Shown here piece by piece: positions 3,678 through 46,000 of a stretch of 64,000 nt of DNA (positions are counted from its first letter, which is position 1; each line of letters opens with the position of its first letter). Location of the stretch: assembly GCA_028290285.1 (NCBI GenBank), contig JAQGKD010000035.1, positions 54,122 through 118,121 on the forward strand, given 5' to 3'. The notes beneath the pieces are model-generated. The model ran no database searches, was not told the origin of the DNA, and saw only the letters and a program-made list of their open reading frames with translations. The position numbers and the translations under genes were made by a program. Source of the DNA: Hyphomicrobiales bacterium. Lineage in GTDB: Bacteria; Pseudomonadota; Alphaproteobacteria; Rhizobiales; Beijerinckiaceae.

Positions 3678-3728
3678 GAGCCCGGGACGACCCGGGCTCT
3701 CTCGAATGTCGCGCGGGGACGACCCTGC
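3678..3728 (+). promoter_or_regulatory. Candidate guanidine-II (mini-ykkC) riboswitch upstream of gdx
   Basis: Two hairpins, both capped by the tetraloop ACGA, lie in the leader of the guanidinium-exporter gene. Hairpin 1 is GAGCCCGGG-ACGA-CCCGGGCTC (perfect 9 bp, 3678-3699). Hairpin 2 is GCGGGG-ACGA-CCCTGC (6 bp with one G-U, 3713-3728). A 13-nt linker separates them, and 15 nt lie between hairpin 2 and the ATG. Tandem hairpins with ACGR loops directly upstream of sugE/gdx are the known architecture of guanidine-II riboswitches, which act on translation. Neither hairpin is followed by a T tract, so a plain terminator is less likely. The caveat is that GC-rich REP-like palindromes can look similar. 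Confidence 0.75.
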
Positions 3729-3743
3729 CGGGAATATCTCCTC

Positions 3744-4085
3744 ATGCTCGGGTTCCTCTCGTCTCCCTCCTTCGCCTGGATCTTCCTGCTGCTGGCCGGA
3801 CTGCTCGAAATCGGCTGGGCCCTAGGTCTCAAATACACAGACGGCTTTACGCGCCCCTGGCCGAGCCTGCTGACGCTGGCCAGCATTGCCGGGAGCCTCG
3901 GGCTGCTCGGCCTCGCCTTGAAGAACCTTCCGCTGGGCACAGCCTATGCGGTGTGGACGGGAATCGGAACGGTCGGGACGGCGGTGCTCGGCGTTGTGTT
4001 CTTCGGCGAACCGGCGACCGCCCTGCGGCTCGCCTGCATCGGCCTCATCCTTGCGGGCATCATCGGACTGAAGCTCGCGGGCTGA
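3744..4085 (+). CDS. gdx: Guanidinium exporter Gdx (SugE-type SMR protein)
   Basis: Small multidrug resistance protein of 113 aa with four membrane segments. It belongs to the SugE/Gdx subtype, which exports guanidinium in exchange for protons. The first helix carries the essential Glu in [16 protein letters not shown], and helix 3 has [11 protein letters not shown]. Both match the guanidinium-exporter subtype rather than EmrE-like polydrug exporters. A candidate guanidine-II riboswitch immediately upstream supports this substrate. The gene is convergent with ccmG (adjacent ends) and about 27 kb from the guanidine-assimilation operon in the same window. Confidence 0.92.
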
Positions 4086-29539: not shown

Positions 29540-30298
29540 ATGGTCCTTGCCGAGCGAGTGCGGAAGATTACCGGTTTCGCCGCCGTTCTGGCGTTGGGCC
29601 TGCTCGCAGCGGGCAGTGGTCGCGCGGCCGAACGCCCCGCAGTGATCGAGCTGTTTACCAGCCAGGGCTGTTCGTCATGTCCGCCCGCCGACCGGCTGAT
29701 GGGCGAACTCAGCCCGCAGCCCAACCTGATCGTGTTGTCCTTTCCCGTCGACATCTGGGATTACATTGGCTGGAAGGACACTCTGGCGAAGCCGGAATTC
29801 ACGGCGCGTCAGCGCGTCTATGCAGCGACGCGGGGCGATCATCAGGTCTACACGCCCCAGGCGGTCGTCGACGGCGTGATGCATGTCGTGGGCAGCGACA
29901 AGCAACAGGTGCTGGGCACCGTCGCGAAGACACGCGACGAACGCGCGGGCGTCGGCACATCGATCGCCTTGCATGAAGACCATGGCATGGTGGTCGTCGA
30001 TCTCGGCGAGGCCCACGGGGATGTCGGATCGGGCGGTGGCGTCTGGCTCCTGCGCGTGGCGCGCAGCCGCGCTGTCGCCATCGGGCGCGGCGAGAATTCG
30101 GGACACAAGGTCACCTACACCAATGTCGTCCGGTCAATCGCCCGCATGGGCTATTGGACCGGCGTGCCGGCACGCTTCGAATTGCCCCTCGCGGAGGCGC
30201 AGGGCGAGGGCGCCGATGGCTATGTCGTGCTGGTGCAGAAGAACTGGGGCGGCAAGCTCGGCCCCGTTCTGGCGGCTGCCAAGAGCAGCAATCTCTGA
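29540..30298 (+). CDS. Exported DUF1223 thioredoxin-like protein
   Basis: 252-aa secreted protein. The signal peptide (about 1-30) ends GRAA. The DUF1223 domain begins PAVIELFTSQGCSSCPPADR, with a CxxC pair at Cys44/Cys47 in a thioredoxin-like setting, and continues with VDIWDYIGWKDTLAKPEFTARQ and TPQAVVDG. A redox role in the periplasm is plausible from the CxxC but is not established. It lies just upstream of the guanidine operon leader, on the same strand, and is probably transcribed separately. Confidence 0.88.
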   Translation: MVLAERVRKITGFAAVLALGLLAAGSGRAAERPAVIELFTSQGCSSCPPADRLMGELSPQPNLIVLSFPVDIWDYIGWKDTLAKPEFTARQRVYAATRGDHQVYTPQAVVDGVMHVVGSDKQQVLGTVAKTRDERAGVGTSIALHEDHGMVVVDLGEAHGDVGSGGGVWLLRVARSRAVAIGRGENSGHKVTYTNVVRSIARMGYWTGVPARFELPLAEAQGEGADGYVVLVQKNWGGKLGPVLAAAKSSNL

Positions 30299-30397
30299 GG
30301 CGTCACATCTGCCTGTTTTTCGCGCTTGTGCCTGATTTACCGGCAGATCCTGCGCCGAGCGCAGCCGCATCGAGGCAGGTGCACTCGCCGGGGCGAC

Positions 30398-30413
30398 TGG
30401 CACGCGTCGTGCT
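30398..30413 (+). promoter_or_regulatory. Sigma-54 (RpoN) -24/-12 promoter of the guanidine operon
   Basis: TGGCACG-CGTC-GTGCT matches the sigma-54 consensus TGGCACG-N4-TTGCW except for one base, with the obligatory GG and GC ten bases apart. Transcription would start near 30424, about 10 nt before P1 of the riboswitch. This links the operon to nitrogen limitation (an NtrC-type activator is expected). I did not find a full NtrC dyad. A 7-bp dyad ATCTGCC/GGCAGAT at 30307/30342 is the only upstream repeat noticed. Confidence 0.8.
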
Positions 30414-30434
30414 TCCCAATCAGCATTGAGTTGG

Positions 30435-30546
30435 TGGCTAGGGTTCCGATCCCCGAGTGGGTTGACTGGTCCGAGAGCTGCCGCCCGAGCGGGAGAAATC
30501 CGCGCGGGGCACGGCGGGATAAAATCCCGGGAGACCTCAGTAGCCA
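30435..30546 (+). ncRNA. Guanidine-I (ykkC) riboswitch
   Basis: All conserved blocks of the ykkC/guanidine-I aptamer are present in order: CTAGGGTTCCG (30438-30448), CTGGTCCGAGAGC (30466-30478) and CACGGCGGGATAAAATCCCGGGAGA (30510-30534). P1 closes with TGGCTA (30435-30440) pairing TAGCCA (30541-30546). The aptamer binds guanidinium and usually turns gene expression on. Here it precedes the guanidine uptake and carboxylase operon and is followed at once by a terminator-like hairpin, which suggests control of transcription elongation. Confidence 0.96.
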
Positions 30547-30590
30547 GGAATTGGCATACTCAGGTCGTGCCAATTCCCCTTTCGTTTGTT
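30547..30590 (+). terminator. Riboswitch expression-platform hairpin
   Basis: A perfect 10-bp inverted repeat, GGAATTGGCA (30547-30556) / TGCCAATTCC (30568-30577), with an 11-nt loop is followed by the T-rich CCTTTCGTTTGTT. It abuts the 3' strand of riboswitch P1. It is the expected position for a regulated intrinsic terminator, although the T tract is interrupted. Confidence 0.8.
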
Positions 30591-30608
30591 GAAGACAGGG
30601 GATTTGCA

Positions 30609-31697
30609 ATGGTTTTCTCGAAAAATCTCACCCGCAGGACTGCGGCGGCCCTTCTCACCGCGGCCCTGCTCGCCGCGACCAGCCTCGCGACGCCCGCGCA
30701 GGCCGCGCCGAAGAAGGCGTTCAAACTCGCCTGGTCGATCTATGCGGGCTGGATGCCCTGGCAATATGCCGCCGACAGCGGGATCGTGAAGAAGTGGGCT
30801 TCGAAATACGGCATCGCCATCGATGTCGTGCAGGTCAACGATTACGTCGAGTCCATCAATCAATACACGGCGGGCGGCTTCGATGCCGTGACGGCGACGA
30901 ACATGGATTCGCTGTCGATCCCGGCGGTCGGCGGCGTCGATACGACCGCTGTCATCGTCGGCGACTTCTCCAATGGCAACGACGCGATCATACTGAAGGA
31001 CAAGACGAAGCTGGCCGATATCAAGGGCCAGAAGGTCAATCTCGTGCAGTTCTCGGTCTCGCATTACCTGCTCGCCCGGGCGCTGGCGAGCGTCGGCATG
31101 ACCGAGCGCGACGTGACGGTGGTCTCGACCTCCGACGCCGACATGACGGCGGCCTGGTCAACCCCCGACGTAACGGCCGTCGTCACCTGGAACCCGATTG
31201 TCGCCGACATCCTGGCGCTGCCCAAGGCGAACAAGGTGTTCGATTCCACGCAGGTTCCCGGCGAGATCATCGACCTCACCGTCGCCAATACCCAGGTGCT
31301 GAAGGACAACCCGAATTTCGGCAAGGCGCTCGCGGGCATCTGGTACGAGACGATGGCCGTGATGTCAGCCGACGACGCCAGGGGGAAGGCCGCGCGTGAG
31401 GCCATGGGCAAGGCTTCGGGAACCGATCTCCCCGGCTACGAGGCGCAACTCGCGGCGACGCGCATGTTCTACAAGGCGCCAGACGCAATGGCCTTCGTGA
31501 AGGGCGCCGAACTCGGCACCACCATGAACAATGTGCGCACGTTCCTGTTCGATCGCGGACTTCTCGGCAACGGCGCGAAATCCGCCGACGTCGTCGGCAT
31601 CGAGCTTGCCGACGGCAAGGTTCTGGGTGACGCGAAAAATGTGAAGCTGCGTTTCACCGACAGCTACATGGCTGCCGCCGCCGGCGGAAAGCTCTGA
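30609..31697 (+). CDS. Guanidine (urea-carboxylase-associated) ABC transporter substrate-binding protein
   Basis: Periplasmic binding protein of the NitT/TauT-like fold, in the subgroup tied to urea-carboxylase operons (annotated in databases as a putative urea ABC transporter binding protein). 362 aa from the ATG at 30609 with AGGGGA upstream. The track ORF starts inside the riboswitch. A signal peptide runs to about residue 29 (ATPAQA-APKK). The segment KLAWSIYAGWMPWQYAADSGIV is typical. Riboswitch control points to guanidine rather than urea as ligand; this is inference from context. Confidence 0.9.
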   Translation: MVFSKNLTRRTAAALLTAALLAATSLATPAQAAPKKAFKLAWSIYAGWMPWQYAADSGIVKKWASKYGIAIDVVQVNDYVESINQYTAGGFDAVTATNMDSLSIPAVGGVDTTAVIVGDFSNGNDAIILKDKTKLADIKGQKVNLVQFSVSHYLLARALASVGMTERDVTVVSTSDADMTAAWSTPDVTAVVTWNPIVADILALPKANKVFDSTQVPGEIIDLTVANTQVLKDNPNFGKALAGIWYETMAVMSADDARGKAAREAMGKASGTDLPGYEAQLAATRMFYKAPDAMAFVKGAELGTTMNNVRTFLFDRGLLGNGAKSADVVGIELADGKVLGDAKNVKLRFTDSYMAAAAGGKL

Positions 31698-31737: not shown

Positions 31738-32559
31738 ATGCGTCTGATCAACCGGCGTCCCAACGCACGGGTTTCGCGGCTCATCGCCGCGATCCCCTTT
31801 GCGGCGACGATTCTGGCCTATCTGATCGGGTCGGGGGTGCGGCTCGCGGTCAATCCGTCGGACAAACTGCTGCCGAGTCCGCTCAGCCTGTTCGAGGCCA
31901 TCAAGCGCATGGCCTTCCAGATCGACCAGCGCACGGGCGATATCCTCATGCTGGTGGATACGACCGCGAGCCTCGGGCGCATCTTCGCGGCGCTCGCGAT
32001 TGCGACCGTGATCGCGCTGGTGCTCGGCGTCAGCGTCGGCCTGCTGCCCTATCTGCGCGCGCTGTTTGGCAGCTACATCACCGTGCTGTCGATGGTGCCG
32101 CCGCTCGCGCTGCTGCCGATCCTGTTCATCACGATGGGGCTCGGCGAGAGTTCGAAGATCGCACTGATCGTCATCGGCGTCGCGCCGTTCATGGTGCGCG
32201 ACCTCGCGCTTCGAGTGGAGGAATTGCCGCCGCAGCAGCTCATCAAGGCGCAGACGCTGGGGGCGTCCACCTGGCAGATCATCCTGCGTGTGGTGCTGCC
32301 GCAGGTGCTTCCGCGTCTCATCGACGCGCTGCGCCTGTCGCTCGGGCCGGCATGGCTGTTTCTCATCGCGGCCGAGGCCATCGCGTCAGAATCCGGCCTT
32401 GGCTATCGCATCTTCCTCGTGCGCCGTTTTCTGGCGATGGATGTGATCATTCCGTATGTCGCGTGGATCACGCTGCTCGCCTTCCTGATGGACCGCGCGC
32501 TCGTCGTGTTGCAGCGGCGCAGCTTTCCCTGGTTCGCCGTCGCGAGGGCGCAGGGATGA
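31738..32559 (+). CDS. ABC transporter permease for guanidine uptake
   Basis: 273-aa inner-membrane permease of the NitT/TauT (SsuC-like) family with about six hydrophobic segments. The EAA-type loop is EELPPQQLIKAQTLGASTWQIILRV, shortened here as AQTLGASTWQIILRVVLPQV. The start follows the binding protein by 40 nt. Its stop overlaps the ATPase start in ATGA. Works with the flanking binding protein and ATPase. Confidence 0.92.
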   Translation: MRLINRRPNARVSRLIAAIPFAATILAYLIGSGVRLAVNPSDKLLPSPLSLFEAIKRMAFQIDQRTGDILMLVDTTASLGRIFAALAIATVIALVLGVSVGLLPYLRALFGSYITVLSMVPPLALLPILFITMGLGESSKIALIVIGVAPFMVRDLALRVEELPPQQLIKAQTLGASTWQIILRVVLPQVLPRLIDALRLSLGPAWLFLIAAEAIASESGLGYRIFLVRRFLAMDVIIPYVAWITLLAFLMDRALVVLQRRSFPWFAVARAQG

Positions 32560-33389
32560 GCGCGATCTCCGTAAAGGGGGTCTGGAAGGAGTATGACGAC
32601 CACGTCATCCTCGAGCAGATCGATCTCGAAATTCCCACCCGCTCATTCGTGGCGCTCGTGGGTCCCTCCGGCTGCGGCAAGACGACATTCCTGAAGATGC
32701 TGCTGTCGGAAGAAAACCCGACGCGCGGCATCATCGCGATCGACGGCGTGGAACTGGCGCGCGAACCCGATGCCGATCGCGGTGTGGTGTTCCAGCGTTA
32801 TTCGGTGTTTCCGCACCTGACCGTGCTGGGCAATGTGCTGCTCAGCCTCGAACTCGCGCAGTCGCCGTTTCTGGGCAAGCTGTTTGGCGGGCGCAAGCGG
32901 GCGGCGGAAGAGGAGGCGCGCGCGTTTCTCGTCTCCGTCGGCCTCGGTGGCGCCGAGGGCAAATATCCGAGCCAGTTGTCGGGCGGCATGCAGCAGCGTC
33001 TCGCGCTCGCTCAGGCGCTCGTGGCCAAGCCGAAAGTGCTGTTGCTCGACGAGCCCTTCGGCGCGCTCGATCCCGGCATTCGCGCCGACATGCACAAGCT
33101 CATGCGCCAGCTCTGGCACGACCGGGCGCTGACGGTGGTGATGGTGACGCACGACATGAGCGAGGCCTTCACGCTCGCCACCCGCGTCATCGCCTTCGAA
33201 CGGCGGCGCAACGAGCCCTCCGATGCGGGGCGCTACGGCGCCAGCATTTCGCGCGACATCGACATCTGGCCGCCGCGCCTCGCGCGTTCGCTGGCCCAGA
33301 CCACGCCCACATCTGCGCGCCGGGACGACCCGGATGCGATTTCCCAAGACGTCCGGGACGACCTGGCAAGCCAAGGAACCGGAGCATGA
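32556..33389 (+). CDS. ABC transporter ATP-binding protein for guanidine uptake
   Basis: 277-aa NitT/TauT-type ATPase. It has Walker A GPSGCGKTT (36-44), signature LSGGMQQRLALAQAL (141-155), Walker B VLLLDEP (161-167) and H-loop VTHD. The track's 31731-33389 ORF is a frame fusion. The real start is the ATG at 32556, overlapping the permease stop. After the conserved DIDIWPPRL block, the last 30 or so residues form an unusual polar tail with two RDD units. Their codons build the ACGA hairpins described at 33320. The stop overlaps the next start by 4 nt. Confidence 0.93.
   Translation: MSAISVKGVWKEYDDHVILEQIDLEIPTRSFVALVGPSGCGKTTFLKMLLSEENPTRGIIAIDGVELAREPDADRGVVFQRYSVFPHLTVLGNVLLSLELAQSPFLGKLFGGRKRAAEEEARAFLVSVGLGGAEGKYPSQLSGGMQQRLALAQALVAKPKVLLLDEPFGALDPGIRADMHKLMRQLWHDRALTVVMVTHDMSEAFTLATRVIAFERRRNEPSDAGRYGASISRDIDIWPPRLARSLAQTTPTSARRDDPDAISQDVRDDLASQGTGA
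33320..33366 (+). promoter_or_regulatory. Candidate guanidine-II (mini-ykkC) riboswitch inside the ATPase 3' end
   Basis: Two ACGA-capped hairpins are CCGGG-ACGA-CCCGG (33320-33333) and CCGGG-ACGA-CCTGG (33353-33366, one G-U pair), with a 19-nt linker. The second ends 19 nt before the ATG of the first deiminase gene and 6 nt before its AAGGA ribosome binding site. This matches the tandem ACGR-hairpin layout of guanidine-II riboswitches, known upstream of urea/guanidine carboxylase genes. What is odd is that both hairpins lie within codons 255-271 of the ATPase. Stems are short (5 bp), so chance or a REP-like palindrome is not excluded. Confidence 0.62.
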
Positions 33390-34210
33390 CAGCTCACGTT
33401 GAAACGGCCGCCTCCATCAATGCAAACCGGAAGCGCTACGAAGACCTGAAGGCCGCGGGAAACAGCGCCCCGCGCAAAGTCCTGCCCGGCCCGACGCCGC
33501 GCGACGGTGCGCCCCTGCAAGAGGCCAACATCGCGCATCGCGAGATCATCCCGGCGGGCTGGTACTGGACGACGAAAATCGCACGCGGGCAGGGCCTGCG
33601 CCTGCTCAACACCTCGGGCACGCCTGGCGTGTCGCTGTTCTGCTGGAACGCCGCCGATACGAGCGAGCGCTACAACAGTGCCGATACGATCAAGATCCAG
33701 TGGACGGCGGAGATGCGCAAGGGGCGCGTGCTGTTCTCGGACATGGGGCGCGTGCTGTTCTCGATCGTCGAGGATACGTGCTGCGCGCATGACACGGTGG
33801 CGGGCGGCTCGACGCCTGCGTCCAATTTCGCAAGATACGGCGATGCCGCGCTGCGCTCCACCGGCGAGAATTTCGTTCTGGCGGCGGGCAAGCATGGGCT
33901 GACGCGCCGGGATCTCGCGCCCGTCATCACCTTTTTCGCACCGGTCTCGGTCGGCGCGGAAGGGCAGCTCGGATGGAGGGAGGGAGCGGTGAAAGCAGGC
34001 GATTTCGTCGATCTGCGCGCGGAACTCGACCTTATCGTCGCGGTCTCCAATTGCCCGCATCCGCTGGCACCCGATGCGCCCACGGCGTCCGGCGCGATGG
34101 AGGCCATCGTGCATCGGCTGCCTGCGGCTGGTGACGACGATCTCTGCCGCACGGCCAGCGCCGAAGCCGCGCGCGGCTTCGACAATAATGCGCTTTTCCT
34201 GCGCGCCTGA
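33386..34210 (+). CDS. Carboxyguanidine deiminase subunit (urea amidolyase-associated protein 1, DUF1989)
   Basis: 274-aa DUF1989 protein. In characterised guanidine-degrading bacteria two such proteins form a deiminase that converts carboxyguanidine to allophanate and ammonia. Motifs shared with its neighbour are DTSERYNSADTIK, GRVLFSIVEDTCCAHDT and GKHGLTRRDLAP. The second cluster of potential metal ligands seen in the paralogue (CSCEAN) is replaced here by STPASN, so this may be the non-catalytic partner. That role split is inference. The start overlaps the ATPase stop (ATGA), and a candidate guanidine-II element lies upstream. Confidence 0.9.
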   Translation: MTAHVETAASINANRKRYEDLKAAGNSAPRKVLPGPTPRDGAPLQEANIAHREIIPAGWYWTTKIARGQGLRLLNTSGTPGVSLFCWNAADTSERYNSADTIKIQWTAEMRKGRVLFSDMGRVLFSIVEDTCCAHDTVAGGSTPASNFARYGDAALRSTGENFVLAAGKHGLTRRDLAPVITFFAPVSVGAEGQLGWREGAVKAGDFVDLRAELDLIVAVSNCPHPLAPDAPTASGAMEAIVHRLPAAGDDDLCRTASAEAARGFDNNALFLRA

Positions 34211-34224
34211 CGGGAGGGATCGAC

Positions 34225-34857
34225 ATGAGCATGACCACATCCCAACCGGCGATCCACGATTTCGTCATCCCCGCCAATCGTCCCTGGTCCGGGCTCGTCA
34301 AGCGCGGACAGATCCTGCGCATCGTCGATCTCGAGGGGCAGCAGGCCATCGATACGCTGTTTTATGCAGCTGACGACACGAGCGAGCGCTACAGCGCGCA
34401 GGACACGATTCTGGCTCAGGGCGCACCTTACGTGACCACGGGCACGAAACTGGTCGCCAATACGGGCCGCGTCATGGCCTGCGTCGTCGCCGATTCCTGT
34501 GGGCGTCACGACACGTCGGCGGGCGCCTGTTCCTGCGAGGCGAACACCGTGCGCTTCGGGCATCACACACGCTACATGCATGCGTGCCGCGAGAATTTCC
34601 TGGTCGAAGTCGCGAAGCACGGCATGAGCAAGCGCGACATCGTGCCCAACATCAACTTCTTCATGAACGTGCCCATCGAGCCCGACGGACGTCTCGCCAT
34701 CGTCGATGGCGTGTCGGCCCCCGGCGATCACGTCGATATCCGCGCGGAGATGGACGTGCTCTGCGTGATCTCGAATTGCCCGCAGGTGAACAATCCCTGC
34801 AACGGCTTCAATCCGACGCCGGTGCGCGTGCAGATCTTCGCGTCCGGGGTGGCATGA
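34225..34857 (+). CDS. Carboxyguanidine deiminase subunit (urea amidolyase-associated protein 2, DUF1989)
   Basis: 210-aa DUF1989 paralogue of the preceding protein and its likely heteromeric partner. It shares DTSERYSAQDTIL and VAKHGMSKRDIVPNINFFMN. It carries two Cys/His clusters, DSCGRHDTSAG and CSCEANTVRFGHHTRYMHAC, that could hold a metal ion, suggesting the catalytic subunit. It begins 14 nt after the previous gene with a GGGAGG ribosome binding site and ends 4 nt before the carboxylase. Confidence 0.9.
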   Translation: MSMTTSQPAIHDFVIPANRPWSGLVKRGQILRIVDLEGQQAIDTLFYAADDTSERYSAQDTILAQGAPYVTTGTKLVANTGRVMACVVADSCGRHDTSAGACSCEANTVRFGHHTRYMHACRENFLVEVAKHGMSKRDIVPNINFFMNVPIEPDGRLAIVDGVSAPGDHVDIRAEMDVLCVISNCPQVNNPCNGFNPTPVRVQIFASGVA

Positions 34858-34861
34858 GGCC

Positions 34862-37800
34862 ATGTTCAAGAAAGTCCTCATCGCCAACCGGGGCGAAATC
34901 GCCGGTCGCGTCATCCGTACGCTGCGCCGTCTGGGCGTGGCCTCCGTCGCCGTGTATTCCGAAGCGGATCGCTTTACGCGGCCCGTGCTCGATGCTGACG
35001 AGGCCGTGGCTATCGGTCCCGCCCCGGTCAAGGAGAGCTATCTCGATGTCGACGCCATCATCGCCGCGTGCCTGCGCACGGGGGCCGAGGCAGTGCATCC
35101 GGGCTATGGCTTCCTCTCGGAGAATGCACGCTTTGCCGAGCGGCTCGCCGAACACGGCATTCGCTTCATCGGCCCGCGCCCGGAGCATCTGCGCGAATTC
35201 GGGCTGAAACATACGGCGCGCGAAATCGCGGCGCGCTCGGGCGTCCCGCTTCTGCCCGGCAGCGGGTTGCTGGACGGCATGGAAGAGGCGGTGAGGGCGG
35301 CCGACGAGATTGGATATCCCGTCATGCTGAAGAGCACGGCGGGCGGCGGTGGCATCGGCATGCAGCTGTGCCACGATGCGGCGGAACTGGTCGCGAAATT
35401 CGCAGCCGTGCAGCGCATGGCCGGGGCGAGCTTCGGCGATGCGCGCGTCTATCTCGAACGCTTCGTCGCGGTCGCGCGTCACGTGGAAGTGCAGATCTTC
35501 GGCGACGGCAAGGGCCATGTCGTGGCGCTCGGCGAACGCGATTGCTCGTTGCAGCGTCGCAACCAGAAGGTTGTGGAAGAGACGCCCGCGCCGAATATTT
35601 CCGACGCTCTGCGTCGACGCCTGCATGAGGCGGCAATCGCGCTGGGGCGGGCCGTATCCTACGAATCCGCTGGTACCGTGGAGTTCATCTACGATGTCGT
35701 GCGGCAGGATTTCTCCTTCCTCGAAGTGAACACGCGCTTGCAGGTCGAGCATCCGGTGACCGAGGCCGTGTTCGGCGTCGATCTCGTGGAATGGATGATC
35801 CGCCAGGCGGCGGGTGAACTCGTGCTTCCCCCCCAAGCCGCGCTGGTGCCCAAGGGCGCGGCGATGGAAGTCCGCGTCTATGCGGAAAATCCGCAGGCCG
35901 ATTTCCGTCCCTCGACCGGATTGCTGACGCAGGTGACCTGGCCGGACGGCGTGCGCGTCGATGGCTGGGTCGAAACCGGCACGGAGGTCTCGTCCTATTA
36001 CGATCCGATGCTCGCCAAGCTCATCGTCTCTGGGGCGGATCGTCCCGCCGCGCTGGACGCGTTGCGAACCGCCTTGGCGGGCACAGCGATCCACGGCATC
36101 GAGACCAATCTCGATTACCTGCGGGCCGTCGTGGGCGCGCCCGCATTCACCAACGGCGATGTCTCGACCGATGTGCTGAAGCGCTTCGTCTTCACCCCGC
36201 GCGCCATTGAGGTGATCGCACCCGGCGCGCAGACGAGCGTGCAGGACTGGCCGGGGCGTCTCGGCCTCTGGGATGTCGGCGTGCCGCCGTCCGGTCCCAT
36301 GGACGAGCGCTCGCATCGTCTCGCCAATCGCATCGTCGGCAATACCGAGGCCGCTGCTGCGCTGGAATGCACCGTCAATGGGCCGACGCTGCGTTTCCAC
36401 CATGAGGCAATCGTCGCGCTGACAGGCGCGGAGATGACCGCGCGGCTCGATGGCGTGCCCGTGCGCTTCTTCGAGCCGGTCCGCGTGGGCGCCGGTCAGG
36501 TGCTGTCGCTGGGCGCCATCGAGGGGGCGGGACAACGCTGCTACCTCGCCGTGCGCGGCGGCATAGATGCTCCCGTCTATCTGGGCTCGCGCGCGAGCTT
36601 TTCGCTCGGGCGCTTCGGCGGCCATGCGACGGGTCTGCTGCGGGCTGGCGAGGTGCTGAAGATCGACCGTCTCAGCGAGGCCGAGCCACGGCCCGCTTCA
36701 CCCGACGAGGTCGCGCCGCTCACGCGCGAATGGACGATCGCCGTGCGCTCGGGTCCGCATGGCGCGCCGGATTTCTTCACGTCGGGCGATATAGAGGCGC
36801 TGTTTTCCGCGCGTTACGAAGTGCATTTCAACTCGGCGCGAACGGGCGTGCGGCTGATCGGACCGCAGCCGGAATGGGCGCGGCGGGATGGTGGCGAGGC
36901 GGGGCTGCATCCCTCCAACATCCACGACAATGCCTATGCGATCGGCGCTATCGATTTTACCGGCGACATGCCGATCATCCTGGGACCCGATGGCCCAAGC
37001 CTCGGCGGCTTCGTTTGTCCGGCGGTTATCGCGCGCGGCGATCTCTGGAAGATGGGCCAGCTGAAACCTGGCGACGGCGTGCGCTTCGTGCCTGAAGACG
37101 GCTACGCGGCGCTGAGCGCGTCGCCCATGCGGGCAGGGGCCGTGCAGAGCCCTATCCTGCAATGTCTCGAGGACGGGCCCGTGCGCGTCGTCTATCGGCG
37201 CGCGGGCGACGACAACCTGCTCGTGGAATACGGTCCGATGGCGCTCGATCTCGCCTTGCGCCTGCGCGTGCATCTGCTGGCGCAGGCGGTGCTGGAGGCG
37301 CGACTGCCCGGTGTGATCGACATGACGCCGGGCATCCGCTCTCTGCAGATCCATTTCGACAGTTCTGCGCTTTCCGGCACGCGGCTGATTGATGTCCTGC
37401 GCGGCATCGAGGCGGGGCTTCCGGCGGCGGAGGACGTGACGGTGCCGAGCCGCATCGTGCATCTGCCCCTGTCCTGGAACGATCCGTCGATCCGCCTCGC
37501 CATGCGCAAATATCAGGAGCTGGTGCGGCCCGATGCGCCGTGGTGCCCCGACAACATCGAGTTCATCCGCCGCATCAACGGTCTTCAGTCGATTGAGGAT
37601 GTGCATCGTATCGTCTTCGAGGCCGATTATCTGGTGCTGGGCCTCGGGGATGTCTATCTCGGCGCGCCGGTGGCGACCCCCATCGATCCGCGTCATCGGC
37701 TGGTGACCACGAAGTACAATCCCGCTCGCACGTGGACACCGGAGAACGCGGTCGGCATCGGGGGCGCGTATCTCTGCGTCTACGGCATGGAGGGGCCGGG

Positions 37801-38401
37801 CGGCTACCAGCTGTTTGGCCGCACGATCCAGATGTGGAATTCGTGGCGCTCGACGCCGGAGTTCAAACCGGGCCATCCATGGCTCCTGCGCTTCTTCGAC
37901 CGGATCAAGTTTTTCCCCGTCGGGGAGCGCGAGTTGATGGAGGCGCGCGAGGCGTTTCCGCATGGGCGCTATCCCATCCGCATCGAGGAGACGACCTTCT
38001 CCTACCGCGATTACGCGGCCTTCCTTGCGCAGAACGAAGCCAGCATTGCGACGTTCAAGGGCACGCAGCAGGCGGCGTACGAGGCCGAGCGCGCCGACTG
38101 GAAAGCGCGGGGGCTCGACAGTTTCGTCAGCGACGACGGCGGCCCGCCAGTCGCGCAGGACGAAGTGCTTCCCGAAGGTGTGAGCGCGATTTGCGCGACC
38201 ATAACCGGCAACGTCTGGAAGATTCTCGTGGAAGAGGGCGATGTCGTCGAGGCCGGGCAGCCGGTCGTGATCGTCGAGTCGATGAAGATGGAAATGCCGA
38301 TCGCAAGCACGATCGCGGGCCGGATCTCCGGCCTTCGCTGTCAGCCCGGACGTACCGTTCGCGCGGGAGATGTCGTCGCACTTATTGAAGGGGTCTCATG
38401 A
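34862..38401 (+). CDS. Biotin-dependent guanidine carboxylase (urea carboxylase family)
   Basis: 1179-aa multidomain enzyme that carboxylates guanidine (or urea) at the expense of ATP and bicarbonate. The biotin carboxylase domain spans about 1-450 (VLIANRGEIAGRV, GYPVMLKSTAGGGGIGM, EVNTRLQVEHPVTE). Two KipA/KipI-like carboxyltransferase halves cover about 455-1080 (TSVQDWPGRLGLWDVGVPPSG; GIGGAYLCVYGMEGPGGYQLFGR). A C-terminal biotinyl domain carries Lys1142 in VESMKMEMP. Unlike yeast urea amidolyase, the hydrolase is a separate gene. Guanidine is favoured over urea because of the riboswitches and the two DUF1989 genes. Overlaps the next gene by ATGA. Confidence 0.93.
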   Translation: MFKKVLIANRGEIAGRVIRTLRRLGVASVAVYSEADRFTRPVLDADEAVAIGPAPVKESYLDVDAIIAACLRTGAEAVHPGYGFLSENARFAERLAEHGIRFIGPRPEHLREFGLKHTAREIAARSGVPLLPGSGLLDGMEEAVRAADEIGYPVMLKSTAGGGGIGMQLCHDAAELVAKFAAVQRMAGASFGDARVYLERFVAVARHVEVQIFGDGKGHVVALGERDCSLQRRNQKVVEETPAPNISDALRRRLHEAAIALGRAVSYESAGTVEFIYDVVRQDFSFLEVNTRLQVEHPVTEAVFGVDLVEWMIRQAAGELVLPPQAALVPKGAAMEVRVYAENPQADFRPSTGLLTQVTWPDGVRVDGWVETGTEVSSYYDPMLAKLIVSGADRPAALDALRTALAGTAIHGIETNLDYLRAVVGAPAFTNGDVSTDVLKRFVFTPRAIEVIAPGAQTSVQDWPGRLGLWDVGVPPSGPMDERSHRLANRIVGNTEAAAALECTVNGPTLRFHHEAIVALTGAEMTARLDGVPVRFFEPVRVGAGQVLSLGAIEGAGQRCYLAVRGGIDAPVYLGSRASFSLGRFGGHATGLLRAGEVLKIDRLSEAEPRPASPDEVAPLTREWTIAVRSGPHGAPDFFTSGDIEALFSARYEVHFNSARTGVRLIGPQPEWARRDGGEAGLHPSNIHDNAYAIGAIDFTGDMPIILGPDGPSLGGFVCPAVIARGDLWKMGQLKPGDGVRFVPEDGYAALSASPMRAGAVQSPILQCLEDGPVRVVYRRAGDDNLLVEYGPMALDLALRLRVHLLAQAVLEARLPGVIDMTPGIRSLQIHFDSSALSGTRLIDVLRGIEAGLPAAEDVTVPSRIVHLPLSWNDPSIRLAMRKYQELVRPDAPWCPDNIEFIRRINGLQSIEDVHRIVFEADYLVLGLGDVYLGAPVATPIDPRHRLVTTKYNPARTWTPENAVGIGGAYLCVYGMEGPGGYQLFGRTIQMWNSWRSTPEFKPGHPWLLRFFDRIKFFPVGERELMEAREAFPHGRYPIRIEETTFSYRDYAAFLAQNEASIATFKGTQQAAYEAERADWKARGLDSFVSDDGGPPVAQDEVLPEGVSAICATITGNVWKILVEEGDVVEAGQPVVIVESMKMEMPIASTIAGRISGLRCQPGRTVRAGDVVALIEGVS

Positions 38402-40215
38402 TGCTGCCCGTTTTCCTCGATCTCGCAACATTGGACGCGGGCTATCGCGATGGCCGTTTCACCCCGCTAGACGTGGTCGAGGCGGTCATCGAGCGCCATG
38501 CGACATGGCCCGACGATGCGGTCTGGATCAGCCGCGTGGCGAATGATGAGCTCCGCGTGCAGGCGCGTGCGCTGATCGCGGCGGGCGGTCCTTCCGCCGA
38601 CCAGCCACTCTGGGGCATTCCCTTCGCGGTGAAGGACAATATCGATTGCGCCGGGTTGCCCACGACGGCGGCCTGTCCGGCCTTCGCCTATCTGCCTGCC
38701 ACGGATGCATTCGTGGTGGCGCGGCTGAAGGCGGCGGGCGCGATCCTCGTCGGCAAGACCAATCTCGATCAGTTCGCCACAGGCCTCAACGGCACGCGTT
38801 CGCCCTATGGCGCGCCGCGGTGCGTCTTCGATGCGCGCTATGTTTCGGGCGGCTCGTCGTCCGGTTCGGCGGTGGCCGTCGGCTCGGGCCAAGTGGCCTT
38901 CGCGCTGGGCACGGACACTGCGGGCTCCGGGCGCGTGCCCGCGGCCTTCAACAATCTCGTCGGCCTCAAGCCGACGCCGGGGCTTGTCTCGACAAGCGGT
39001 CTCGTGCCGGCCTGCCGCAGCCTCGATTGCATCACGGTTCTCGCAGGAAATGTGGGGGATGCCGACAAGGTGTTCCGCGTCATGCGCGGCTACGATGCGG
39101 GGGACGCCTTTTCTCGCGAAATGCAGCCGTGCGACCTGCCACGGGCCGGACTGCGCTTCGGCGTGCTGGGTGCGAGCGAGCGGGAGTTCTTCGGCGACCG
39201 CGAGACGGAGGCGCTTTACGACGCTGCCATCGCCGGGCTCGAAAAGCTCGGTGGCTCCAGGGTCGAGATCGACTATGCGCCGTTCCGCGAAAGCGCTTTC
39301 CTGCTCTATGGCGGCCCGTGGGTCGCCGAGCGGCTCGCCGCCATCGAGAGCTTCGTCGAGGCGCATGCGGACGCGATGGATCCCAATGTCCGCGCCATCG
39401 TCGAGGCCGCGAAGGACAAGAGCGCGGTGGAGGCGTTTCGCGGTGTCTATCAGCTCGCGCAATTGCGCCAGAAGGCGGCGCGCGAATGGGCGAAGATGGA
39501 CGTGATGCTGCTGCCGACTGCGCCGACGATCTACACGGTCGAGGCGATGCAGGCCGATCCCATTGCGCTCAATTCCAATCTCGGGCGTTACACGAATTTC
39601 GTGAACCTGCTCGATTGCTGCGCCATCGCCATCCCCGGCGGGTTCCGCGAGGATGGCCTGCCCGGCGGCGTGACGCTGATCGCGCCGGCTTTCTGCGACG
39701 ATGCGCTGGCCGCGCTCGCCGACCGGCTGCATCGCGCCGCGCCCTTCGGGATGGGCTGCGATGTGGCCGCTGTTCTGCCGGACGCGAGCAAGGTGGTGGC
39801 TCCGGCGGGCCGCGGCATCGAGATCGTCGTTGTCGGCGCTCATCTTTCGGGGATGCCGCTCAATCATCAGCTGACGAGCGGGGGAGGGTCGCTTGTGCGT
39901 CGGTGCCGCACGGCCGGCGATTACCGCCTGTTTGTGCTGCCCGACACCGTGCCGCCGAAGCCCGGCCTCGTTCGCGAGCCCGGCTTTGCAGGGGCGGGGC
40001 TCGACGTCGAGGTTTGGTCGCTGCCCGCCGCGTCCTTCGGCGCCTTCGTCGATGCCATTCCGGCGCCGCTGGGCATCGGCAAGGTCACGCTCGACGATGG
40101 CGCTACCGTGAGCGGGTTCCTGTGTGAAGCGCACGGCGTCGAAAGCGCGCGCGAGATCACCCAGCTAGGGGGGTGGCGGGCCTATATCGCGGAGAAGACC
40201 GGAGGAGCCGCCTAG
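38398..40215 (+). CDS. atzF: Allophanate hydrolase
   Basis: 605-aa amidase-signature enzyme hydrolysing allophanate to ammonia and CO2, the last step of the pathway. The Ser-cisSer-Lys triad is visible: Lys79 in PFAVKDN, cis-Ser at about 153 in GGSSSGSAVA and Ser177 in GTDTAGSGR. The C-terminal allophanate-hydrolase domain starts near residue 475 (IVVVGAHLSGMPLNHQL). The start overlaps the carboxylase stop in ATGA. Its stop overlaps the stop of the convergent TPM gene (CTAG), leaving no room for a separate terminator. Confidence 0.95.
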   Translation: MMLPVFLDLATLDAGYRDGRFTPLDVVEAVIERHATWPDDAVWISRVANDELRVQARALIAAGGPSADQPLWGIPFAVKDNIDCAGLPTTAACPAFAYLPATDAFVVARLKAAGAILVGKTNLDQFATGLNGTRSPYGAPRCVFDARYVSGGSSSGSAVAVGSGQVAFALGTDTAGSGRVPAAFNNLVGLKPTPGLVSTSGLVPACRSLDCITVLAGNVGDADKVFRVMRGYDAGDAFSREMQPCDLPRAGLRFGVLGASEREFFGDRETEALYDAAIAGLEKLGGSRVEIDYAPFRESAFLLYGGPWVAERLAAIESFVEAHADAMDPNVRAIVEAAKDKSAVEAFRGVYQLAQLRQKAAREWAKMDVMLLPTAPTIYTVEAMQADPIALNSNLGRYTNFVNLLDCCAIAIPGGFREDGLPGGVTLIAPAFCDDALAALADRLHRAAPFGMGCDVAAVLPDASKVVAPAGRGIEIVVVGAHLSGMPLNHQLTSGGGSLVRRCRTAGDYRLFVLPDTVPPKPGLVREPGFAGAGLDVEVWSLPAASFGAFVDAIPAPLGIGKVTLDDGATVSGFLCEAHGVESAREITQLGGWRAYIAEKTGGAA

Positions 40216-43861: not shown

Positions 43862-43968
43862 GGCGTTTTCCGAGCTTGCCGGAGGCCGCTAGAGGACTTC
43901 GGCAACCCTTCCCGGCGACTTGTCCGAATGTCTCGCGACCAAAGTTTGAGCGCTGACGGCTTGTTCGT

Positions 43969-44035
43969 GGGCTGCGCATTTGCATAATGCAGCGCACAAT
44001 CCATGAGCAAAGTTCGCTGAGTGCAAAGTACTCAG
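43969..44035. promoter_or_regulatory. Palindromic motifs in the acs leader
   Basis: Two dyads lie in the 200-bp leader of acs: TGCATAATGCA (43981-43991), set in a larger imperfect palindrome GCTGCGCATT...AATGCAGCGC, and CTGAGT-gcaaagt-ACTCAG (44017-44035). Both are candidate operators for an acetate/short-chain-acid regulator. No regulator can be named. Confidence 0.35.
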
Positions 44036-44062
44036 GTGCGTGTCCCGCGGGGAGGGAACAAC

Positions 44063-46000
<1,938 letters not shown>

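Follow-up and report, generated by a model that had tools for sequence, protein, structure and literature searches.

A sigma54 promoter conserved directly ahead of a guanidine-I riboswitch points to two-input nitrogen control of a guanidine carboxylase operon

Guanidine carboxylase operons with a guanidine-I leader and an internal guanidine-II riboswitch have been described in Vreelandella boliviensis, Raoultella and Klebsiella (PMC12508155, PMC12186494), while the NtrC/sigma54 regulon is known to include glnK-amtB, urease and nas genes (PMC5343134, PMC5491218). In Burkholderia cenocepacia H111, RNA-seq of an ntrC mutant under nitrogen limitation showed the urea carboxylase gene I35_7286 down by log2 6.0 and the gene of a urea-carboxylase-related ABC binding protein (I35_7283) at zero reads, with 95% of the top 150 NtrC genes also being sigma54-regulated (PMC5491218). 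The H111 genes were read as urea utilisation and no riboswitch was mentioned (PMC5491218); a guanidine-I aptamer in H111 is unconfirmed. For Rhizobiales, atzF was named as a predicted NtrC target in 2016 (PMC5343134), and in 2025 COG3665 'urea carboxylase' genes were predicted to be under sigma54 control (PMC12316311). The parts themselves are thus not new, and similar operons have been predicted to respond to NtrC. What would be new is the joining of promoter and riboswitch: among the open-licence literature we found no paper connecting a guanidine riboswitch to sigma54 or NtrC, an absence that is no proof.

The operon analysed here lies in a 64,000-nucleotide stretch of DNA from a Hyphomicrobiales bacterium, the whole of which we call the window, and its features are collected in Table 1. 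The carboxylase, UAAP1, UAAP2 and the allophanate hydrolase all score above their NCBIfam cut-offs, and the presence of UAAP1 and UAAP2 together with guanidine riboswitches indicates that the operon encodes the guanidine carboxylase pathway (PMC12186494, PMC12508155). In such carboxylases an Asp at the active site marks guanidine and an Asn urea as the substrate (PMC12186494). The ATPase stop codon ends at 33389, the UAAP1 ATG is at 33386 and the guanidine-II aptamer is situated within the ATPase frame. This in-frame position is common to 10 of 11 relatives checked with Rfam, the aptamer of Xanthobacter being located after the stop, and both ACGA loops commonly share one codon phase in the relatives, encoding RDD twice. 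The internal riboswitch thus overlaps coding sequence, is crossed by translating ribosomes, and would represent a third control layer absent from the preliminary description of this DNA. A second guanidine-II riboswitch (3679-3727, 46.9 bits) precedes a small SMR-type exporter gene (3744-4085), probably Gdx. Detoxification and assimilation are consequently both represented in the window, the exporter locus (L211) being without a sigma54 site.

Table 1. Features of the guanidine operon and its control region, in window coordinates.
Feature	Position	Strand	Basis
Upstream activator (NtrC-type) dyad 1, TGCCTGTTTTTCGCGCT	30310..30326	.	offset -88 from the sigma54 site; leave-window-out matrix score 8.15, rank 10 in window
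Upstream activator (NtrC-type) dyad 2, TGCCTGATTTACCGGCA	30329..30345	.	offset -69 from the sigma54 site; leave-window-out matrix score 10.75, rank 5 in window
sigma54 (RpoN) -24/-12 promoter, TGGCACG-N4-GTGCT	30398..30413	+	motif match; conservation in 78/80 relatives
Predicted transcription start (+1)	30424	+	inferred from sigma54 geometry, 12 nt after -12 GC
Guanidine-I (ykkC) aptamer	30427..30535	+	Rfam RF00442, 80.8 bits vs gathering score 63, E 8.3e-13, full length
Expression platform: antiterminator-like hairpin 30533-30566 overlapping terminator-like hairpin 30547-30577, then CCTTTCGTTTG	30533..30577	+	folding
ABC transporter substrate-binding protein (putative guanidine importer)	30609..31697	+	TIGR03427 ('putative urea ABC transporter'), 540.5 bits vs cut-off 333.9
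ABC permease	31738..32559	+	
ABC ATPase	32559..33389	+	
Internal guanidine-II (mini-ykkC) aptamer, 3' end of ATPase reading frame	33317..33366	+	Rfam RF01068, 32.9 bits vs 32
UAAP1 (carboxyguanidine deiminase subunit)	33386..34210	+	TIGR03425
UAAP2 (carboxyguanidine deiminase subunit)	34225..34857	+	TIGR03424
Guanidine carboxylase (annotated urea carboxylase)	34862..38401	+	TIGR02712, 1851.6 bits
Allophanate hydrolase AtzF	38398..40215	+	NF006043 / TIGR02713

The control region contains a near-consensus sigma54 site immediately upstream of the guanidine-I aptamer. The 16-mer at 30398-30413, TGGCACGCGTCGTGCT, differs from TGGCACGNNNNTTGCW by a single mismatch (G for T at position 12) and ends 13 nt before the aptamer at 30427-30535. 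Its GG (30399-30400) and GC (30411-30412) are separated by N10, as in the consensus TGGCACG-N4-TTGCW. The preliminary description had given this site as one base off consensus with GG-N10-GC spacing, which can be read directly in the sequence, and had predicted a start about 10 nt before P1, in agreement with the approximate position 30424 proposed here, 9 nt ahead of the first P1 base (30433 in the Rfam alignment). We judged the frequency of the motif from the window, shuffles and surveys. Sigma54-like sites with at most two mismatches show no enrichment across the window, where 8 were counted and 11.3 would be expected, and the site ties for the best score, one reached by two of about 128,000 window positions. 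The window alone consequently provides a position-specific argument that is suggestive only. Position 12 of the site is G, against T in 56 of 59 distinct sites of relatives, and as the -12 element GTGC departs from the usual T, the window's copy of the promoter may be weaker. The organism's own genome yields two full-length rpoN matches above cut-off with nearly equal scores, on contigs C31 and C43; given an estimated contamination of 7% for the assembly, one of the two may be foreign.

The sigma54 site is conserved at a fixed distance from the aptamer. Using the operon's binding protein, we fetched 80 named alphaproteobacterial relatives, among them Rhizobium, Kaistia, Bosea, Devosia, Niveispirillum, Azospirillum, Methylocystis and Aquabacter. 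A site is located 36-40 nt ahead of the aptamer core in 78 of these, both exceptions being Xanthobacter (L041, L045). Across the 59 distinct sites of the relatives TGG, A5, T13, G14 and C15 are invariant and C4 is found in 58, with flanks mostly below 1 bit; the site of locus L101, for example, is TGGCACGATGATTGCT. In a survey at family, class and phylum level, with a score of at least 19 as site threshold, 49 of 86 guanidine-I loci of Pseudomonadota, a set that takes in weak Rfam matches and loci ahead of other genes, carried a site, compared with 1.4% of shuffled regions. At an equal threshold none of 30 guanidine-II loci did (9 before SMR exporters, 17 before UAAP1 and 4 other). Both counts back the earlier placement of an RpoN promoter immediately before a guanidine-I aptamer. 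Chance could account for the motif taken alone; the reality of the site is confirmed by its conservation across the sequences compared.

Spacing differs between classes. Most of the surveyed alphaproteobacterial loci have the site beginning 20-30 nt upstream of the aptamer, while the distance is about 50-78 nt in other classes, including beta- and gammaproteobacteria, indicating that the arrangement was not simply inherited as a single block. Caballeronia sp. NK8 (beta) has the site TGGCACGCTTATCGCA about 50 nt and Pantoea agglomerans (gamma) the site TGGCACGCCATTTGCT about 55 nt before an Rfam-confirmed guanidine-I aptamer. At two loci of family f16 (L157, L162), a guanidine-I aptamer is followed by a TonB-dependent receptor-like gene, and a near-perfect sigma54 site stands 25 nt upstream of the aptamer. 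Standing where the ABC importer would be expected, this gene is a candidate for an outer-membrane guanidine receptor.

Upstream of the promoter, a conserved dyad is found at a characteristic distance. We profiled 62 non-redundant upstream regions for a 17-bp dyad of about the form TGCYYAAAWATTRRGCA. Its positional profile has a main peak at -86 to -90 relative to the promoter (z about 7) and a second, weaker one at -67 to -70; at the -88 position the dyad is present in 46 of the 62. The window carries two copies at the conserved distance. A search for an upstream NtrC dyad conserved among relatives, suggested in the preliminary description, has thereby found one. Convincing dyads are absent at several sigma54-positive loci, for example L167, L177 and L204. 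The enterobacterial NtrC consensus TGCACC-N5-GGTGCA showed no excess over shuffles as upstream activating sequence (UAS), and the alignment-derived dyad was used instead; the NifA UAS TGT-N10-ACA was found in 2 of 83, no more than chance. An IHF consensus separates the UAS from the promoter in 31 of the 62 regions (0.34 expected), nearly all of them Rhizobium, with 29 sites fixed at -18 from the sigma54 site in Rhizobium-type loci; in the window none was found. Elsewhere in the window, at 43936-44159, three high-scoring NtrC-like dyads surround the start of an acetyl-CoA synthetase-like gene (44021-46000). No top-scoring sigma54 site is near this cluster, which may be due to chance.

The organization of the leader suggests that initiation and readthrough are controlled by separate signals. 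The two alternative folds of the expression platform are nearly equal in predicted stability (-17.0 and -16.5 kcal/mol). The window has a strong hairpin with a competing fold and a weak T tract that was not flagged in a consensus terminator scan; a hairpin and T run occupy the equivalent place in many relatives, where terminators are clear. A pairing seen in the window's fold between the conserved GAGTTGG before P1 and the 3' strand of the terminator was discarded, its complement not being kept in the relatives' terminators. From the sequence features, their fixed geometry and conservation, and the dyad shared with glnK-amtB promoters, we consider it very probable that NtrC/sigma54 initiation and guanidine-dependent readthrough form an AND gate, as proposed in the preliminary description, with the internal guanidine-II riboswitch gating translation of the enzyme genes. 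Under nitrogen limitation, NtrC-P bound to the two dyads, which lie some 80-115 bp ahead of the predicted start, would activate sigma54 polymerase at 30398-30413. Transcription is predicted to begin about 9 nt ahead of P1, at most about 10 nt from the guanidine-I aptamer, so that the aptamer would be made first. With guanidine bound, the terminator hairpin at 30547-30577 would be avoided and RNA polymerase would read into the operon, where the internal aptamer (33317-33366) would gate translation of UAAP1 and downstream genes. Expression of the operon would then require both nitrogen limitation and guanidine, a logic that the published loss of expression in the B. cenocepacia ntrC mutant strengthens.

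Both elements could be real without forming a strict gate if a basal second promoter or a leaky terminator lets one input suffice, which we regard as rather unlikely. The weak T tract of the window would fit such leakage, and the B. cenocepacia operon mRNA, which is NtrC-dependent, is detectable under nitrogen starvation in a medium for which no guanidine is mentioned (PMC5491218), suggesting some readthrough without added ligand. In V. boliviensis, on the other hand, growth on ammonium in place of guanidine leaves the operon proteins either absent or reduced by about 1000-fold (PMC12508155), a contrast that does not tell the two inputs apart.

The dyad of the guanidine operons is also that of the glnK-amtB promoters. 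We retrieved the amtB loci of 28 genomes that had also been used for the guanidine operons. The glnK promoters there are of the sigma54 type, and the guanidine-operon matrix marks them strongly (mean best score 13.8, compared with 3.0 +/- 3.5 for shuffled sequences). Since glnK-amtB is a core NtrC target (PMC5343134), we take the dyad to be these organisms' NtrC box. The organism's own genome encodes NtrC (G000:C24:10620-12059, 697 bits with a cut-off of 558.6) with an intact GAFTGA loop, and no local activator gene with such a loop was found within about 6 kb in the window and at loci L001-L110, making a global activator likely. At one Caballeronia locus (L269), a sigma54-interacting regulator gene is located about 3 kb upstream. 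That a real sigma54 promoter is instead served by another enhancer-binding protein, for example NtrX, and thus couples in a signal other than general nitrogen limitation, appears improbable. The dyad, TGCYYA-N5-TRRGCA, does differ from the enterobacterial form, which few alphaproteobacterial loci match well, and further proteins of the organism's genome match the NtrC model below cut-off, two of them with GAFTGA. Against this stand the match to glnK-amtB, the lack of a local activator gene and the ntrC dependence of the corresponding B. cenocepacia operon, all of which favor NtrC.

Some relatives have an equivalent operon or guanidine-I locus without a sigma54 site, namely genus g33 of the family, Xanthobacter and genus g9, indicating that the coupling of promoter and riboswitch is not obligatory. 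An NtrC-type dyad is nevertheless present, nearer to the aptamer at 61-93 nt before it, at the sigma54-negative loci L005, L006, L007, L013, L019-L021, L041 and L045; many of these dyads are strong, with scores such as 19.5 (L013), 15.1 (L005) and 13.6 (L045). The NtrC of Caulobacter lacks GAFTGA. A similar loss was considered for the sigma54-negative relatives, but all 14 checked keep GAFTGA or GSFTGA, arguing that lost sigma54 contact is not why their sites are missing. We tentatively propose, as a possibility somewhat short of even, that guanidine-I riboswitches of Pseudomonadota are preferentially wired to NtrC/sigma54 promoters in assimilation, that alphaproteobacterial transcription starts within a few nt of the aptamer, and that lineages losing the sigma54 site kept the dyad closer to the aptamer, nitrogen control outlasting a change of promoter class.

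It is highly improbable, and largely refuted by the conservation seen among the aligned sequences, that the -24/-12 likeness is due to chance or belongs to some other element, such as an operator (palindrome GCACG-CGT-CGTGC), with the operon on a sigma70 promoter: the window does contain the perfect inverted repeat GCACGCGTCGTGC, is as a whole unenriched for sigma54-like sites, and has sister lineages that appear to use other promoters at a nearly equal place, but TGG, A and TGC are invariant in the 59 distinct sites, the palindrome is not conserved among relatives, no sigma70-type site was found in 30280-30640, and the UAS is at a conserved distance.

If NtrC/sigma54 initiation is indeed joined to guanidine sensing, one transcript would bring riboswitch and general nitrogen regulator together in a natural AND gate that is conserved across distantly related Proteobacteria and accounts for the use of guanidine only when it is needed. 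Published 'urea carboxylase' matches in NtrC/sigma54 regulons would be recast as guanidine assimilation, and the operon would offer a ready system to test combined control of initiation and elongation. Preferential wiring of guanidine-I to NtrC/sigma54, if true, would make this two-stage (initiation plus elongation) nitrogen logic a general rule.

The locus resembles the known two-riboswitch operons in riboswitch classes, genes and layout. The internal guanidine-II riboswitch is found between cgdB and gca in V. boliviensis, whereas here it is inside the ATPase frame before UAAP1. The review cited for that layout (PMC12508155, PMC12186494) contains no NtrC or sigma factors, while here initiation is assigned to NtrC/sigma54 and the promoter-aptamer distance is fixed. 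With the NtrC/sigma54 regulon (PMC5343134, PMC5491218) the locus shares a -24/-12 promoter, upstream NtrC dyads and an ammonia-releasing operon; it differs in having a substrate-sensing riboswitch directly after the promoter, which would add a specific signal post-initiation. The closest logic is that of gifB in cyanobacteria, where NtcA and a glutamine riboswitch likewise combine a global nitrogen regulator with a nitrogen-metabolite leader riboswitch on one mRNA (PMC6316151). In that system NtcA represses under nitrogen limitation and glutamine turns expression on, such that both inputs report nitrogen excess, and no sigma54 is involved (PMC6316151). In contrast, the two inputs of the guanidine operon would be independent, one reporting general need and the other a specific source of nitrogen.
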